In this document: positions 8,075 to 26,157 of the stretch, in pieces
Position numbering within the stretch: position 1 is the first letter of the stretch
How the letters are laid out: every line of letters begins with the position of its first letter
Assembly (NCBI RefSeq): GCF_052324685.1
Contig: NC_135211.1
Coordinates: 13,022,913-13,086,912 of the forward strand
Origin: Brachyhypopomus gauderio
Lineage: Eukaryota > Chordata > Actinopteri > Gymnotiformes > Hypopomidae
Direction: 5' to 3'
DNA length: 64,000 bases
Notes under the pieces: model-generated
Database searches by the model: none
What the model was told of the DNA's origin: nothing
What the model saw: the letters and a program-made list of their open reading frames with translations, nothing else
Translations under genes and position numbers: made by a program

Positions 8075-11000
8075 TTACCGCCATGACACTTCTCTTGATG
8101 ACACGACTGCAAGACACAAAAGTGGTTTGAGCTTTCCAGTGCGATGAGGAATGAAAATGATAATATCTAATGTTCATTTAAAGACTTGAAATTCATTTAA
8201 TCACTTGAAATTTAGTTTTCCTAAGAAATATTGTGTTATGTGTTTATCTATTCTTTTCTCAGTCAGATTAGTGCTGTCTTACAACCTACAAATCCCCAAA
8301 GGAGCACACACAGACCCGAAGAGCCAACAGAGAAGAAGGGAGGAGCCAAAGCGAAGGAGAGGGCGCAGCCTGGAAAAGTAGGAAGAGGAAGGCTTGGAAG
8401 AGCGCTACAGACAGGACGCTAGGGGGCGCCAGAGTACTGACTGTCAGATACTGGCTGGTTCGGTTTCACACATACACACCCTCTGGATGGAGACTGGAGA
8501 CCAGTGGGTTTTGAAGGCTGCGAGGGTTACCCAGGATCTGCTTGGCAGTGGTGCGAGGGTTGAACTCCAACACTGAATGATTCGAGTCTGTTTAAGCAGA
8601 GCAGGAGACGTAGAGCGTTTACGGCTATGTCCTTGAGCACGAATTGCACAATAGAGCTCAAGTCATACTGTGTACTTACTTCATACTTTTTACTTTATTC
8701 TTTACATAACCCTAAAGTTTGCTCGGACCATGCAGGAGATAAGCTGTGGCAATTTTGACAGTGTTTACATTGTCAAGCTCACATGGGTTCACACTAAAGC
8801 CGCAAAAGTAACGCAGTAGCCTACATTGCGAGCTGCCACAGACTGTATCATATTATTTTTATTTATTTAATTTTTTGTCTAGTTTAAGTTTTTTGTGAAG
8901 GTAACTTTTATACCCATTACCTTCATCGCTTTGTCCGTCGGGCATGAGGTGGGCCAGATCCGAGTCATCTGGGTGCAGGCTGGGGTGGCTTGGAGGAACT
9001 CCCGCCTGCCGTATGAACTGCTGCAGGTTACACTGCCGAAGTTCCTTATTCAGCTCGTTCACTTCGTTGCTTTTAGCCTTTAAAAAAGAGCAAAAATGAT
9101 CAGCAAGCTAAGCCACCGTGCTAAATTGCAGTTAGCTGCGAGCATGATATTACGGATAAATAAAGACAGCTTGTCGCATTTGATGTAAATTAAGGCCTAA
9201 TCTAAGAACCAGAACCAGAGGCATTATTTAGATAATAGTGATGCAGTGCATATAAGTGATTATAACAGCAGGTCCTGCTGAAGACATCATAGTTGGTTCT
9301 GAAAGAAGATCTAGATTAATTGTACTTTCTGTGCTGTAAAATTGAGTGGGAAGTGTCCATATATATGAGTCACTAGAATACACCACTTTCCAACCTGGAC
9401 AGAGATGTACTATGAATTTACTGATGTATTTATTTCTTACCCAAGCATTAGTTAACATCTGTCAAATCTAAATCTGTTTTCATCTGTTTGGTAGGTCATT
9501 TGTTTGTTAGTTTTTTGGATGTGGCATTTTAAGCTTCGTGAGATTCACTACTAAAATGATATTTTACTGTTTGTACATGACTGCCACCCAGATTGACTGA
9601 GGAATGGTGGAATAGATGTTTAGCATGTCAGGGTAAACATACCATGCAGTGTTTATTGAAGTGTATCTGACTGTTTACTCAGTGATGCATGCTTGTTAAC
9701 AAAAACAATGGCAGAATTGAAGTGGACGTGTGTTTGATTTAAAATAATTGAAGATTGTGGTGATGAGGCTGATCAATTATAGTGATGATCCTGATCAATT
9801 CTTCACATAAACTATGATAAATGGTAAATGCAGCAAAATGCTTTAATGAAAAGCATTGTACTTATATCCATTACAATAATGTTTCCTGACTGTAAAGTCA
9901 AAAATAACTAAGGTCAATATCTCTTAATTGCATAGAAAACAATTAAGAAAATGCATTCCCCTAGTCTTTAGAAAGAAAGAGGGCAAGCAGAAAGGTTTCC
10001 TGGACATGGACTAAATTACTAAATTACACTACCAGTATTAAAGTTATTTTTAATCTGTGTGTGTGCTTATGGATCTGGAAACCGGCCCAAAGAGCTTTAT
10101 GTAGGAACGATTCAGCTTTGAACTGCCTTTTGGGAAATCTACAGTTTTACTGGCTTTAAAGCACGTTGCTTAAGGGCACATCAGAAATGGTCATTGAAAG
10201 CACACTGGAACCGGTAGCCTGCCAGAACAAGACCTGCATTTGAGATATTTATGCAGGTAATGAGTAAAGGAAATGCATTGTGTCCTGCTTCACAGAGATT
10301 CCTGCCGGGACATCAAGACTAATTCCATGAACCTGTTTCTTTTTTAAAGGACAACATCTCCAGGTAAGTTAGAGCCATCAGAATAAAGAAGGGGTGAAAA
10401 TGCATAACTGCAGAGTACTTATGTATAATTATGTAGTTTGAAAAAAGTGCTATTGTGCGAAACGGTTGGATACTACTGACTGCCTTTAGATGTCTTCCAG
10501 ACTTGTAATGTATTCTGCAAAGTTTATATTATTGCATACCTGTAGCAGGTCTTCTGCCACGTGGAGAGCTTTTTCTGTCTCCTCAAGGGAAAAGCCCAGC
10601 TCAGAACCCTGATGCTGGGCGTTATCTAGCTGTCCCCTCATCTGCTCCAGAGACTCCTCCATGCTCGCCCGCGCGTAACGCAGACCATTCTTCCTGGTCT
10701 CCACCTGGAGCCGGAGGTCTCGCTCAAATCTCTCGGACTGGTCTCCCGTCTCGTGGATCTGGCGAGTGTGCTCATCCAGAGCGGCGTGGAGCTCCCTGAG
10801 CTGTCTCAACATGCTTTGCTCCCTCTGCACCTCCACGTGGTACTCCGACTCCCAGTACTCGACGTGGGCCAGTTCTGCCTCGTTGCACCTGTACGCCTCT
10901 CCCAGGTTGCTCATTTCCTCCAGCAGGTCTGGAGACAGTCCAGGAGGGCAGGGCTGCTCCAAGACCTGCACCTGCTGCTCCAGAGCCTCCAGATGGGCCT

Positions 11001-11719
11001 GGAGGGCCTGCAGCTTCCCCTGCTGCTGAAGGACCTGCCGGAATACGTCCTCTTTGGACTGGCCAACTTGGGCAGAGGACGAGGGTGCCCTCAGGTCTGA
11101 GGGGTCCTTGGTCACCTTCCTCGGCTGTTTGGTGTGCGTCTGTATTGAGGTAGTGGGGCCCAGGTTGAAGCTGAGAGCTTTCTTGGGCTCTCTCCTCTTC
11201 GGGGCCTCAGGTTCCAGGAACTTGGGGATTGCGGGCAGCTGGTCCAGGTCTGAGCCCTCGCTGCTGGTGGGGCCAGTGCGGCGAAGGATAAACTGCACCT
11301 CACTGCTCAGCTGGCCCAGTTTAGCCAGCGATTCCAGGGGCCGCTCATTCGCTACCAGCTGTCGCTCGGTGTCCCTCAGCTTCTGGATGAGGACATAACG
11401 GCCTGTTTGCCCTAGAGGACAAATAAATAAGAATATGAGATGTAAGTGTTGGTATTCAATGAATATATATGAACATTCAATGAATATTTATTATATTTGA
11501 GCTAAACATCTGTGGTAAATACTCTGTATGAAGTAAATATCAAGTAAATGAAATTGGTCAGGCAAAAGAAATCAGAGCTATCAGTTTTTTTTTCTTGCAG
11601 GCACATCAACACATACCTATAGCCTGAGCCAGGGCAATGACCACATCCTGACAGGACGTCTCCTCAGATAAGCCACAGACAACGCGCTGCACCCCATCCA
11701 CCCACACCTTTAGCTCCAT
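8075..11719 (-). CDS. rassf7: Ras association domain-containing protein 7, four coding exons
   Basis: Coding exons on the minus strand are 11719-11617, 11411-10540, 9077-8921 and 8106-8075, all with GT-AG borders and matching phases (1164 nt, 387 residues; human RASSF7 has 373). The N-terminus MELKVWVDG starts the ubiquitin-like Ras-association domain (about residues 1-85, ending [11 protein letters not shown]). A Pro/Ser linker and a long coiled coil (about 165-340) follow. The conserved [15 protein letters not shown] is in exon 3. The short last exon (VSSREVSWR, stop) is inferred from a good acceptor and phase fit. N-terminal RASSF proteins act as scaffolds in JNK signalling, mitosis and junction control. 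Its neighbours are hras to the right and the phrf1-like relic to the left, matching human 11p15.5. Which teleost paralogue (a or b) is unknown. Confidence 0.9.
8416..8429 (+). promoter_or_regulatory. CTCF-like motif in rassf7 intron 3
   Basis: The sequence acgctagggggcgc fits the vertebrate CTCF core consensus at nearly every position. It stands out from AT-rich surroundings. Binding is inferred only. Confidence 0.4.
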
Positions 11720-17359: not shown

Positions 17360-17689
17360 CCTCTCCCTGCATTTGCACTGGAGTTAAAACAGACAACATA
17401 TATGACGCAATTGCTTAAATAAACTGTACAGAAACTAACTAAGAAATTACAAGACCTATTACACATACTGTGTAAACTTCAACACATCGATACAATGAAT
17501 TGTTGTATAGTTTCGTTTCTTTTTGTCAACTTGAAAATTGCCTATAAACCTATAACACTGTTTCATTACATTCAAAATTACATAGACATTTGCATGCATT
17601 TAATTACTAAAGTACTGTACATATAAGCAGATCCCACAACTAATGTTGAATGCAAGCAGGTGATCTTGACAATATGCTATACAAAAAAC

Positions 17690-18134
17690 TGTAACGTAGC
17701 TTGCGCCACGGAGCGAGGAGACGGACACAATCGCTGAGAAGAGCGAGATTTATTAAAGGGAATACCATACTCGTCGTCGGATAGCCAGGCAGGGTCGATA
17801 ACAGGAGGGCAGTCCGTAAAACAGGCAAAGACAGGCATCACAAGACAGGGGGCACGGGAAACAGGAGAAACACGAAAACGGTCAGGCACAGAGAACAGCG
17901 GTGGGAAGGACACGATCACACATAAATTCAAAATACCGGACAAAGGACAAGGGAGACTCAGGGGCTTTTATACACAGAACTAAACTAGGGACAGGTGATG
18001 ACAATGACACAGGGGCGTGGTAACAAACGAGGGATTCATAAAACTAACGAGCAGGGCGGGACAAACGGGCAAGAACACAGACACGAGGGAACCCAGAGTG
18101 ACAGCTAGGAGAGGGGGCGTAGCCGCACGTGACA
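17690..18134 (-). repeat. 3' LTR of the non-autonomous element (445 bp)
   Basis: Read on the minus strand, it has TGT/ACA ends, a TATA box (GTGTATAAAAGCCCC, about 17962-17976), and an AATAAA signal near 17748-17754 within TTTAATAAATC. The R/U5 part matches the 5' LTR closely, while U3 differs by substitutions and indels. Confidence 0.85.
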
Positions 18135-18196
18135 GAACCCCCCCTCAAAGCGTGCCACTCTGGGGCACGCAAGGGCAGACAGGACAGGGAACCAGA

Positions 18197-20317
18197 CTAG
18201 GACAAGACAGGGAACCACGGAACACGGCGAGGGACAGGGACAGCAGACACGGGACGGACCGGAGGAACAGACCAGGGGAAAGCAGGGCACGGAGACCGGG
18301 GCACGGCAGGGACAGGGGGACCAGAGACGGGCCAGGAGCTGGGCTGGGGCATGGCGGTACACGGGACACATGGAGACCGGACAGGGCAAGGAGCAGGGCC
18401 GGACAGTACAGGACCGGGGACAGACACGGGAGTGGGGCCAGGGGACAAGGCGGAGGCAAACACAGAGGCAAAGACACCATGAACAACGGAGACAGGCACA
18501 GGCACAAGGTGGGTGACAACTTGGGGAACAGACATGGGGACAGGGACAGAGACGACACCACAGGAAACAGACACGGGAACAGGAACACAGACCTTGACAG
18601 ACACAACCACGGGGACAGGGACCAAAACAAAACCAGGGATGGGACCAGGGAGCAAGGGGAACACGGGCAACGGAACATAGGAGGCAAAGGGCGGAGCAGG
18701 GGGAACACCAAGTCCATGCCCAACAGGGGGCAGCACAGTCTCTGGGGCGACAGGTGCGGCCGGGCGGCAGGTAGCGGGAACAGGAGCCGGCAGACAGGCA
18801 GCGGGAACCGGAGCCGGCAGACAGGCAGCGGGAACAGGCAGGGTCCGCTGGCGGGCAGCGGGGACAGGCAGGGTCCGCTGGCGGGCAGCGGGGACAGGCA
18901 GGGTCCGCTGGCGGGCAGCGGGGACAGGCAGGGTCCGCTGGCGGGCAGCGGGAACGGGAGCCGGCGTGGACGACCTCTCCAGGGTCGCGGGGACAGGAAC
19001 CGGCGCGGACTGCCGACGGGCAGCGGGGACAGGAACCGGCATGGACGACCCCTCCAGGGTCGCGGGGACAGGAACCGGCGTGGACTGCCGACGGGCAGCG
19101 GGGACAGGAACCGGCGTGGACGACCCCTCCAGGGTCGCGGGGACAGGAACCGGCGTGGACGACCCCTCCAGGGTCGCGGGGACAGGAACCGGCGTGGACG
19201 ACCCCTCCAGGGTCGCGGGGACAGGAACCGGCGTGGATGAGACACCCTCGGGGGGCGGAACCACCGGGCTGACGTCCTCAGGGGGCGGAACCACCGGGCT
19301 GACGTCCTCAGGGGGCGGAACCACCGGGCTGACGTCCTCAGGGGGCGGAACCACCGGGCTGACGTCCTCAGGGGGCGGAACCACCGGGCTGACGTCCTCG
19401 GGGGGCGTGACCGCCATACTGACGTCCTCGGGGGGCGTGACCGCCATACTGACGTCCTCGGGGGGCGTGACCGCCATACTGACGTCCTCGGGGGGCGTGA
19501 CCGCCATACTGACGTCCTCGGGGGGCGTGACCGCCATACTGACGTCCTCGGGGGGCGTGACCGCCATACTGACGTCATCGGGGGGCGTGACCGCCATACT
19601 GACGTCATCGGGGGGCGTGACCGCTATACTGACGTGGCTCGTACTCCCCCCCAAAAAATACTTGGGGGTGCCGCGATGAGTCGCTGGCGGGATCAGCGGC
19701 GGTGGGTCCTTCTCCTCAGGGTCCTGGGTGAGCCTGGCAGAACACACAGACACAGAAGCTCCTCGGTTGCTCTCTCTGCTGCGGCTCCGCCTCCCTTGAG
19801 GCGCCGGGAGCTCGCGGTGGTCAGAGAGAGTCAACCGAGGGTTAAGTGAAAACTTGTCTGTGCGCTCAGACCGTCTGCCCGCTGCTCGCACGACAGGAGG
19901 TTTTTCCCTGTCGTGTTCGCAAAACCGGGCAGACACACAGCGCTCAGATGGAGTCTCGTCGCGAAAGCCAGTAGAAAGAGACTGCGCTTTCTTTGGTCGG
20001 CGACGAGACTTCCTTGTACCCGCAGCGCCAGGGGTATTCCTGTCTCTAGTTTGTTCGCACTGAAAAACCGGAGAGTCGAACCGGATTAAACCAGCCGACA
20101 TCCATTCACAGTGTTTGAACTCACCAGAGTCTCGCTCTCTCGCTGTGTCCTTGGATGGTCCGGTATTATGTAACGTGGCTCGCGCCACGGAGCGAGAGGA
20201 CGGACACAAGTGCTGAGAAGAGCGAGATTTATTAAAGGGAATACCATACTCATCGTCAGAAAGCCAGGCAGGGTCGATCACAGGAGGGCAGTCCGAAAAA
20301 CATGCAAACACGGGCAT
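18197..20317 (-). CDS. Long repeat-rich ORF of the LTR element, function unknown
   Basis: From the ATG at 20317 the frame gives about 706 residues. The first part, MPVFACFSDCPPVIDPAW onward to IPFNKSR, is encoded by LTR sequence. A basic, Arg/Ser-rich segment follows (about residues 75-200). Tandem decapeptides come next: PEDVSMAVTP about eight times, then PEDVSPVVPP about five times. Further blocks are built on TLEGSSTPVPVPA and RQRTLPVPAA. The C-terminal third is Pro/Val-rich and of low complexity. I recognise no domain. It could be a Gag-like structural protein of a non-autonomous element, or largely noncoding repeat DNA that happens to be open. The opposite strand is also open here (18017-19240), so openness alone is weak evidence. 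Confidence 0.4.
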   Translation of the reverse strand: MPVFACFSDCPPVIDPAWLSDDEYGIPFNKSRSSQHLCPSSRSVARATLHNTGPSKDTARERDSGEFKHCEWMSAGLIRFDSPVFQCEQTRDRNTPGAAGTRKSRRRPKKAQSLSTGFRDETPSERCVSARFCEHDREKPPVVRAAGRRSERTDKFSLNPRLTLSDHRELPAPQGRRSRSRESNRGASVSVCSARLTQDPEEKDPPPLIPPATHRGTPKYFLGGSTSHVSIAVTPPDDVSMAVTPPDDVSMAVTPPEDVSMAVTPPEDVSMAVTPPEDVSMAVTPPEDVSMAVTPPEDVSMAVTPPEDVSPVVPPPEDVSPVVPPPEDVSPVVPPPEDVSPVVPPPEDVSPVVPPPEGVSSTPVPVPATLEGSSTPVPVPATLEGSSTPVPVPATLEGSSTPVPVPAARRQSTPVPVPATLEGSSMPVPVPAARRQSAPVPVPATLERSSTPAPVPAARQRTLPVPAARQRTLPVPAARQRTLPVPAARQRTLPVPAACLPAPVPAACLPAPVPATCRPAAPVAPETVLPPVGHGLGVPPAPPFASYVPLPVFPLLPGPIPGFVLVPVPVVVSVKVCVPVPVSVSCGVVSVPVPMSVPQVVTHLVPVPVSVVHGVFASVFASALSPGPTPVSVPGPVLSGPAPCPVRSPCVPCTAMPQPSSWPVSGPPVPAVPRSPCPAFPWSVPPVRPVSAVPVPRRVPWFPVLS
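18782..19640. repeat. Tandem-repeat blocks inside the LTR element
   Basis: From left to right on the plus strand: about four 30-bp units with cagggtccgctggcgggcag (about 18837-18950); a mixed array built on cgtggacgacccctccaggg (about 18963-19235); five 30-bp units with gggcggaaccaccgggctga (19250-19400); and eight 30-bp units with gggcgtgaccgccatactga (19400-19635). All unit lengths are multiples of 3, so the minus-strand frame is kept. Confidence 0.9.
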
Positions 20318-20626
20318 CACAACACAGGGGAACACGAGTAACAGGCGAGGAATCAAAGGACAGGGACACAAAAACGGTCGGGTACAACGCTGAACGAGAA
20401 CAAGTCAAACTAATCAAACAAAATACCAGACAAAGGACAAGGGAGACTCAGGGGCTTAAATACAAGGAATCTAACGAGGGGCAGGTGACGGTAATAACAA
20501 GGGGCGTGGTGACAAACAAGGTAATCACAGAGACGAACGAGCGGGGCGGGGTAAACAGGTACGAAACACAGACACGAGGGAGTTTGGAGTGACAGCTAAC
20601 GGAGGGGGGCATGGTCATACGTGACA
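20169..20626 (-). repeat. 5' LTR of the non-autonomous element (458 bp)
   Basis: It has the same ends and layout as the 3' LTR. The TATA-like site reads TATTTAAGCCCC, and the AATAAA signal lies near 20225-20231. An open frame starts within it (ATG at 20317) and runs out of the LTR into the interior. Confidence 0.85.
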
Positions 20627-20631
20627 AAAAC

Positions 20632-25016: not shown

Positions 25017-26157
<1,141 letters not shown>

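Follow-up and report, generated by a model that had tools for sequence, protein, structure and literature searches.

A recently active, apparently self-primed LTR element of Brachyhypopomus gauderio with a selected reading frame that begins inside the LTR

The window considered here is a stretch of 64,000 nucleotides from the fish Brachyhypopomus gauderio (contig NC_135211.1, positions 13,022,913 to 13,086,912), which carries on its minus strand a compact element bordered by long terminal repeats (LTRs), whose parts are collected in Table 1. A previous reading of the letters alone (the sequence-only reading) had described LTRs, a TATA box, AATAAA, a polypurine tract (PPT) and a 5-bp target-site duplication (TSD) at 17690..20626, and all of them are found there. 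Both LTRs have TG...CA ends and contain AATAAA, and identity of five bases between the two flanks arose by chance in 315 of 200,000 random trials. The long frame said to begin at an ATG in the LTR (20317) is equally real and extends over 706 codons, to 18197. It reads from the LTR across the primer-binding site (PBS) and occupies nearly all of the interior.

Table 1. Parts of the element in the window copy, with positions counted along the window
Feature	Position	Strand	Remarks
LTR element, window copy	17690-20626	minus	2.9 kb
5' LTR, 458 bp	20169..20626	minus	subfamily differs from that of the 3' LTR; nearest LTRs among fetched copies are those of L022/L026, 85% identical
3' LTR, 445 bp	17690..18134	minus	99% identical to the LTR of copy L025
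Second copy of codons 1-49, in 3' LTR	17838-17692	minus	open in the same frame
TSD GTTTT (element sense), 5' side	20627..20631		
TSD GTTTT (element sense), 3' side	17685..17689		
TATA box TATTTAAG, 5' LTR	20455..20462	minus	
TATA TATAAAAG, 3' LTR	at 17972	minus	
Predicted RNA 5' end (start of R) GTCTGGTATT	20422..20431	minus	31 nt below TATA; predicted start site
PBS AATACCGGAC	20158..20167	minus	one base past the 5' LTR; within the coding frame
PPT GAGGGGGGG	18138..18146	minus	3' LTR begins three bases further
706-codon frame	18197..20317	minus	codons 1-49 in LTR; crosses AATAAA, LTR end and PBS
LTR-encoded N-terminus of the frame	20169..20317	minus	purifying selection between copies
Tandem array, period 30, 13 copies (VS..V.PPED)	19246..19635	minus	
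Tandem array, periods 39/75 (STPVPVPATLEGS and variant)	18942..19237	minus	
Two tandem arrays, main periods 27 and 30 (LPVPAARQRT and variants)	18768..18952	minus	

The frame consists of the 49 codons situated in the LTR, a basic non-repeated part (codons 51-225), Pro/Val-rich repeats and a Pro/Val-rich C-terminus. The tandem arrays have main periods of 27, 30, 39/75 and 30, all multiples of 3. In the window copy, the start codon is the first ATG of the predicted 114-nt leader. Between the ATG and the repeats, just 4 of 3000 dinucleotide shuffles were without a stop, but over the C-terminal 568 nt 1062 of 3000 were, and an open frame in this latter part of a single copy therefore proves little. 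The claim that the usual gag-pol motifs are lacking was borne out: neither the 706-codon frame nor its parts match any Pfam model at E values up to 1, nor do two other frames of the element, in which reverse transcriptase and integrase with chromodomain of the chromovirus clade were sought. The library does detect Gag in a chromovirus of the source genome, which served as a positive control. NCBIfam, PHROGs and PDB searches with the frame gave no match at the cut-offs used, and the IMG/VR and GTDB genome searches no relatives, as is expected for a fish element. A structure model of the first 225 residues, made from the single sequence, shows no confident fold (mean predicted local distance difference test score, pLDDT, 40.7).

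The sequence-only reading had proposed to count full copies and to follow the frame across them. In the source genome (797 Mb, 840 contigs), a DNA search found 68 matching pieces, among which 19 are full-length, the window copy being counted, with 39 of 3766 candidates scored. When the 49 LTR-coded residues served as query (150 of 4122 candidates scored), all 150 scored matches spanned 49/49 residues at 90-100% identity without stops. Exact junctions were found 90 times for LTR end/PBS and 533 times for PPT/LTR start, and never in a reversed control. Twenty copies were fetched, namely the 18 other full-length matches together with L027 and L028, whose frames are identical to each other. Their paired LTRs differ nowhere in 17 copies and by a single base in 3; TG...CA LTRs, PBS and PPT are present in all 20, and the TSD is perfect in 19, the exception (L020) lying within a tandem array. 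We read the window element as one copy of a numerous and recently active family.

The frame remains open throughout: it measures 640-765 aa in each of the 20 fetched copies, two of which (L014 and L016) carry a distal frameshift and so end in another frame. Nearly all of the interior, 1.8-2.2 kb long, is one frame, and its length is divisible by 3 in 18 of 20 distinct copies, window included. Moreover, 52 of the 90 LTR-end/PBS junctions belong to copies whose LTR peptide fell among the 150 scored. Counted from stop to stop, a measure that gives 735 for the window frame, 41 of these 52 have at least 550 open codons, 9 have 200-549 and 2 fewer. At the other end, we sampled 40 of 100 listed PPT/LTR starts (of the 533), on contigs C1 and C2, 20 per sequence type and fetched copies excluded. 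In the 500 nt upstream, 37 of the 40 show a match to C-terminal DNA from the window copy or from L022, and 39 to the Pro/Val-rich protein, at 45-97% identity, L075 having neither. Since base composition leaves several frames open in these 500 nt, openness at these 3' ends says little. The non-autonomous lineage is thus large and diverse. Within this sample (L061-L100), the C-terminal Pro/Val-rich region falls to about 45% protein identity despite the same PPT/LTR start, a divergence which suggests that the lineage is old as well as diverse.

Selection was measured on 20 distinct frames (19 fetched and that of the window) as the ratio of nonsynonymous to synonymous differences (pN/pS), from pairwise counts pooled over 190 pairs; the figures cover the N-terminal and C-terminal parts, with the repeats outside. 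Pooled pN/pS is 0.070 for codons 1-22, 0.208 for codons 1-49 and 0.377 for codons 50-215, and no indels occur across the first ~600 nt among the 20 copies. Low values are confined to the actual frame: the wrong frames give 1.7-2.7 over codons 2-48, 3.0-27.8 over 2-22 and 1.2-1.8 over 50-190, as compared with 0.214, 0.074 and 0.327 in frame. Low ratios in frame and high ones out of frame indicate that the N-terminal part is translated and selected, most strictly over its first 22, LTR-encoded residues. The suggestion that the element could be non-autonomous with a Gag-like or accessory protein thus holds for a protein of its own, the frame being open and selected, but not for a Gag-like one, given that no Pfam match was obtained with a library that recognises chromovirus Gag. 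One outcome that the sequence-only reading had named as refuting its proposal, a frame disrupted no less often than the others, did not materialise.

The PBS lies within the same frame. In the window copy, AATACCGGAC is exactly complementary to GTCCGGTATT, which occupies 17941-17932 of the 3' LTR, whereas with the predicted RNA 5' end in the 5' LTR it forms nine Watson-Crick pairs and one G-U, on account of which an exact-match search (at least 7 nt) finds nothing there. In all 20 fetched copies, the PBS has an exact complement 30-32 nt below the TATA box; its length is 10-11 nt in 17 of them and 9 nt in the other 3. Three versions of PBS and 5' end co-vary, AATACCGGAC/GTCCGGTATT, AATACTCGAC/GTCGAGTATT and AACACCAGAC/GTCTGGTGTT, and complementarity is complete only within each pair. 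Among 2000 shuffles of the 25 nt following the LTR, none had a 10-nt match at that place and 25 had one anywhere in the 3' LTR. Tf1 primes with the first 11 bases of its own RNA, which are complementary to a PBS adjoining the 5' LTR (PMC7175516, in excerpt), and self-priming is a trait shared across the Tf1/sushi group (PMC10085805, in excerpt). The sequence of the element agrees with self-priming of the Tf1/sushi type, the RNA 5' end being a predicted one.

The window copy probably has a more composite history. Its LTRs show 84 differences over 438 aligned sites and 7 indels (Kimura two-parameter distance, K2P, 0.226), with an uneven identity of 75.8% before the ATG and 90.6%, without gaps, after it. 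The best change point of this divergence lies 13 columns from the ATG, and 1 of 2000 permutations was equally strong. Within the LTR codons, 9 synonymous and 4 nonsynonymous changes separate the 5' from the 3' LTR, a result equalled in 3-6 of 5000 simulations with or without CpG weighting; the synonymous excess is located in codons 2-22 (7 to 1), codons 23-49 alone having none (2 to 3). CpG context accounts for 15 of the 54 LTR transitions. Decay after insertion was rejected as the source of the difference: at such a divergence the frame should have gathered about 3.4 stops and 19 indels, 31 of 1000 simulated runs remained stop-free, and the mostly synonymous nature of the LTR-codon changes also speaks against it. 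Given this nature, the two LTRs most likely diverged in two living lineages, both of which kept the reading frame. With the TSD intact, the copy is likely a mosaic whose 5' LTR was exchanged either during reverse transcription, through plus-strand strong-stop DNA of another element, or later by gene conversion. Mosaics among related elements of the Tf1/sushi group have been ascribed to inter-element recombination (PMC10085805, in excerpt).

Candidate helpers exist among the chromoviruses of the same genome, where a chromodomain search (150 of 1184 candidates scored) gave many hits in long pol frames of 1146-1532 aa. Of 6 chromovirus 3' ends that were sampled, 5 contain a run of 8-10 G followed by CTC and then TGTCAGG, presumably the PPT/LTR junction, versus G7-TTC-TGTCACG in the element. 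In one chromovirus 5' side, the LTR end CGTTACA is followed by one base and an 11-nt stretch complementary to its own LTR, and the Gag frame begins 19 nt past the LTR end (Retrotrans_gag, E 5.9e-14). The LTR ends of the element fit TGTYANR...CNTNACA, the LTR-end motif of Sushi, in which AATAAA is likewise placed near the LTR 3' end (PMC3601003, in excerpt). The cis-signals of the element and of the chromoviruses appear to be arranged alike, with differing sequences. A junction pattern for another Gag-coding type found no match.

We consider it probable that the element is a non-autonomous, recently active element of the sushi type which is moved in trans and encodes an accessory protein of its own. 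RNA polymerase II would start about 31 nt below the TATA box, and the first ~10 nt of the RNA would fold onto the PBS, be cut and serve as primer for reverse transcription, in the manner of Tf1. Sushi-type chromoviruses would supply Gag, reverse transcriptase and integrase. The same RNA would be translated into a protein with a strongly conserved N-terminus of 22 residues, a basic stretch and a Pro/Val-rich repeat domain. As the frame is selected in a mobile element that is non-autonomous, its product must benefit the copies that carry it; the protein, or the act of its translation, may favour the RNA encoding it. We can only guess at how: the N-terminal peptide might bind a particle protein of the helper or a host export or assembly factor, while the basic part would hold the RNA. 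A bolder version, to which we lend somewhat less than even credence, sees a long-lived self-primed lineage in which gag-pol has been replaced by a single gene started in the LTR, and whose protein preferentially captures particles of chromoviruses with dissimilar LTRs for its own RNA. The element would then be a satellite-like parasite of other retrotransposons, equipped with a protein dedicated to hijacking them and with its self-primer site inside its frame.

Several observations weigh against the reading that we consider probable. Concerning the helper, no integrase core lay within 15 kb of the 90 LTR-end/PBS junctions (150 of 3385 candidates scored), and blastn against the 3' ends of 16 integrase hits and 6 chromoviruses found only short chance LTR matches. 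The autonomous partner with matching LTRs, for which the sequence-only reading had advised to look, did not appear among the scored integrase and chromodomain candidates, so mobilisation in trans is what we infer. In the one chromovirus LTR read, neither TATA nor AATAAA was found by pattern, and the LTR ends of the element also fit the rGmr1 motif of fish elements. Concerning the protein, constraint is moderate over codons 23-49 (pN/pS 0.437) and weak over the C-terminal 175 codons (0.52 in 18 copies, L014 and L016 excluded), and codons 51-225 show no codon-position bias of base composition. Only 12 of the 20 fetched copies have no earlier ATG than that of the frame in the predicted leader; an upstream frame of 13 codons ending before the frame ATG occurs in 7, and one of 47 codons overlapping it in L024, so that re-initiation or leaky scanning would be needed there. 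A free-energy fold of the leader did not pair the 5' end with the PBS, and its stability was not above that of shuffles (z 0.82). Finally, the 20 copies are the best DNA matches and the 52 come from scored LTR peptides, and both samples lean towards intact copies.

Among other explanations, the one that survives best, although we think it unlikely, makes the element an internally deleted derivative of an autonomous element whose Gag started in the LTR, the frame being a Gag remnant with expanded repeats. It would explain the selected LTR-coded N-terminus without a new gene, and with 150 integrase candidates scored out of 3385, and 150 chromodomain candidates out of 1184, there is room for such a parent. 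However, the frame matches no Gag model, the single chromovirus 5' end that was read starts its Gag 19 nt after the LTR, and selection acts on the frame in the short form itself. Moreover, among the 40 sampled 3' ends that share this PPT/LTR start, 39 carry the Pro/Val-rich frame, as judged over 500 nt in which integrase was not searched separately.

Rather less likely still is that the frame is kept open for reasons at the RNA level, translation guarding the RNA from decay or promoting its export, and not for a functional protein. The free variation of the Pro/Val-rich repeat number (640-765 aa), the C-terminal pN/pS of 0.52 and the lack of a confident fold in the first 225 residues (mean pLDDT 40.7) would all fit. 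Yet values of 0.07 for codons 1-22 and of 0.33-0.38 for codons 50-190 and 50-215 require selection at the level of amino acids.

A captured or domesticated host gene, selected by the fish, is very improbable. The location of the window copy, with host genes on both sides and a rassf7-like gene of like orientation downstream, could suggest it, but the many copies with identical LTR pairs and different TSDs reveal mobility, and the low pN/pS is found between mobile copies, LTR codons included; we reject this explanation on both grounds. A chance open frame in G+C-rich, stop-poor repeats has next to no probability, for although base composition keeps several frames open in the repeats and the C-terminal part, the N-terminal 225 codons stayed open in only 4 of 3000 shuffles, the first ~600 nt lack indels in the 20 distinct copies, and the frame-specific pN/pS refutes chance for codons 1-215.

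Some further observations were made at the window locus and elsewhere in the genome. By reading, the host genes of the window are ascl1-, rassf7-, hras- and tsg101-like, and the element sits between the rassf7-like gene (10486-11719, minus strand) and the hras-like gene (about 25046-25823, plus strand). A splice-donor-like CTG/GTGAGT in sense orientation occurs just within the interior, at window position 20124 (element position 503). On some contigs, LTR/PBS junctions follow each other on one strand at ~2.2-2.4 kb (C3:20150792/20153167; C9:5699252/5701490 and 5716874/5719112; C70:625414/627695), a spacing consistent with head-to-tail copies that share LTRs. Among the chromoviruses, the chromodomain recurs three times at a spacing of 4829 bp in L122/L123 (C31:179641-189445), which points to a tandem array, and one sense frame seems there to cross the PPT into the LTR.

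The usual view of non-autonomous LTR elements is that of passive templates. Here a family without gag-pol seems to keep a selected protein while multiplying. Such an element should gain in cis from its own protein, which makes the choice of parasite RNA by a helper a testable matter. The family also suggests that one stretch of bases can be kept both as a self-priming site and as part of a coding frame, and its paired versions of PBS and 5' end offer a natural covariation data set for self-priming of the Tf1/sushi type in a vertebrate.

With the Tf1/sushi-ichi chromoviruses, the element shares the self-priming layout, the Sushi LTR-end motifs and the PPT/LTR-start layout of the chromoviruses in this genome. 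It differs from them in having no detected gag, reverse transcriptase or integrase, and its selected non-Gag frame starts in R and not after the PBS. To judge from its sequence, it works like Tf1/sushi in cis and is not a chromovirus by coding content; with no reverse transcriptase or integrase match, we do not class it as one.

The sequence-only reading knew of no described family with this layout. Searches of open-access literature turned up no description of such an element, Repbase, Dfam and subscription papers being outside their scope; a start codon in the LTR is, taken alone, not new. The Gag frame of Ty1 of yeast starts inside the LTR and crosses the LTR end and the PBS, as does the frame described here. 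Ty1, however, is a tRNA-primed Copia element that codes for Gag-Pol, whereas in our element no Gag-Pol was detected and priming would be by its own RNA.

Among non-autonomous LTR elements, TRIM are short and non-coding, LARD have a large non-coding interior and TR-GAG code for Gag. The element resembles all three in possessing LTRs, PBS and PPT without pol and, presumably, in being moved in trans. It is distinguished from TRIM by its length of 2.9 kb and its selected frame, from LARD by an interior of 1.8-2.2 kb that is nearly all one frame, selected where tested, and from TR-GAG by a protein in which no Gag domain was found and which is coded partly in the LTR. Helenus and Ajax are also non-autonomous LTR elements, the former being present in ostariophysan fish too and dependent on Gypsy elements in animals (PMC10886601, in excerpt). 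Vertebrate Helenus has PBSs of the tRNA type and a tRNA-like LTR sequence, and the word ORF (open reading frame) is absent from the searched portion of that paper (PMC10886601); in the present element, by contrast, the putative self-primer site lies within a frame under selection.

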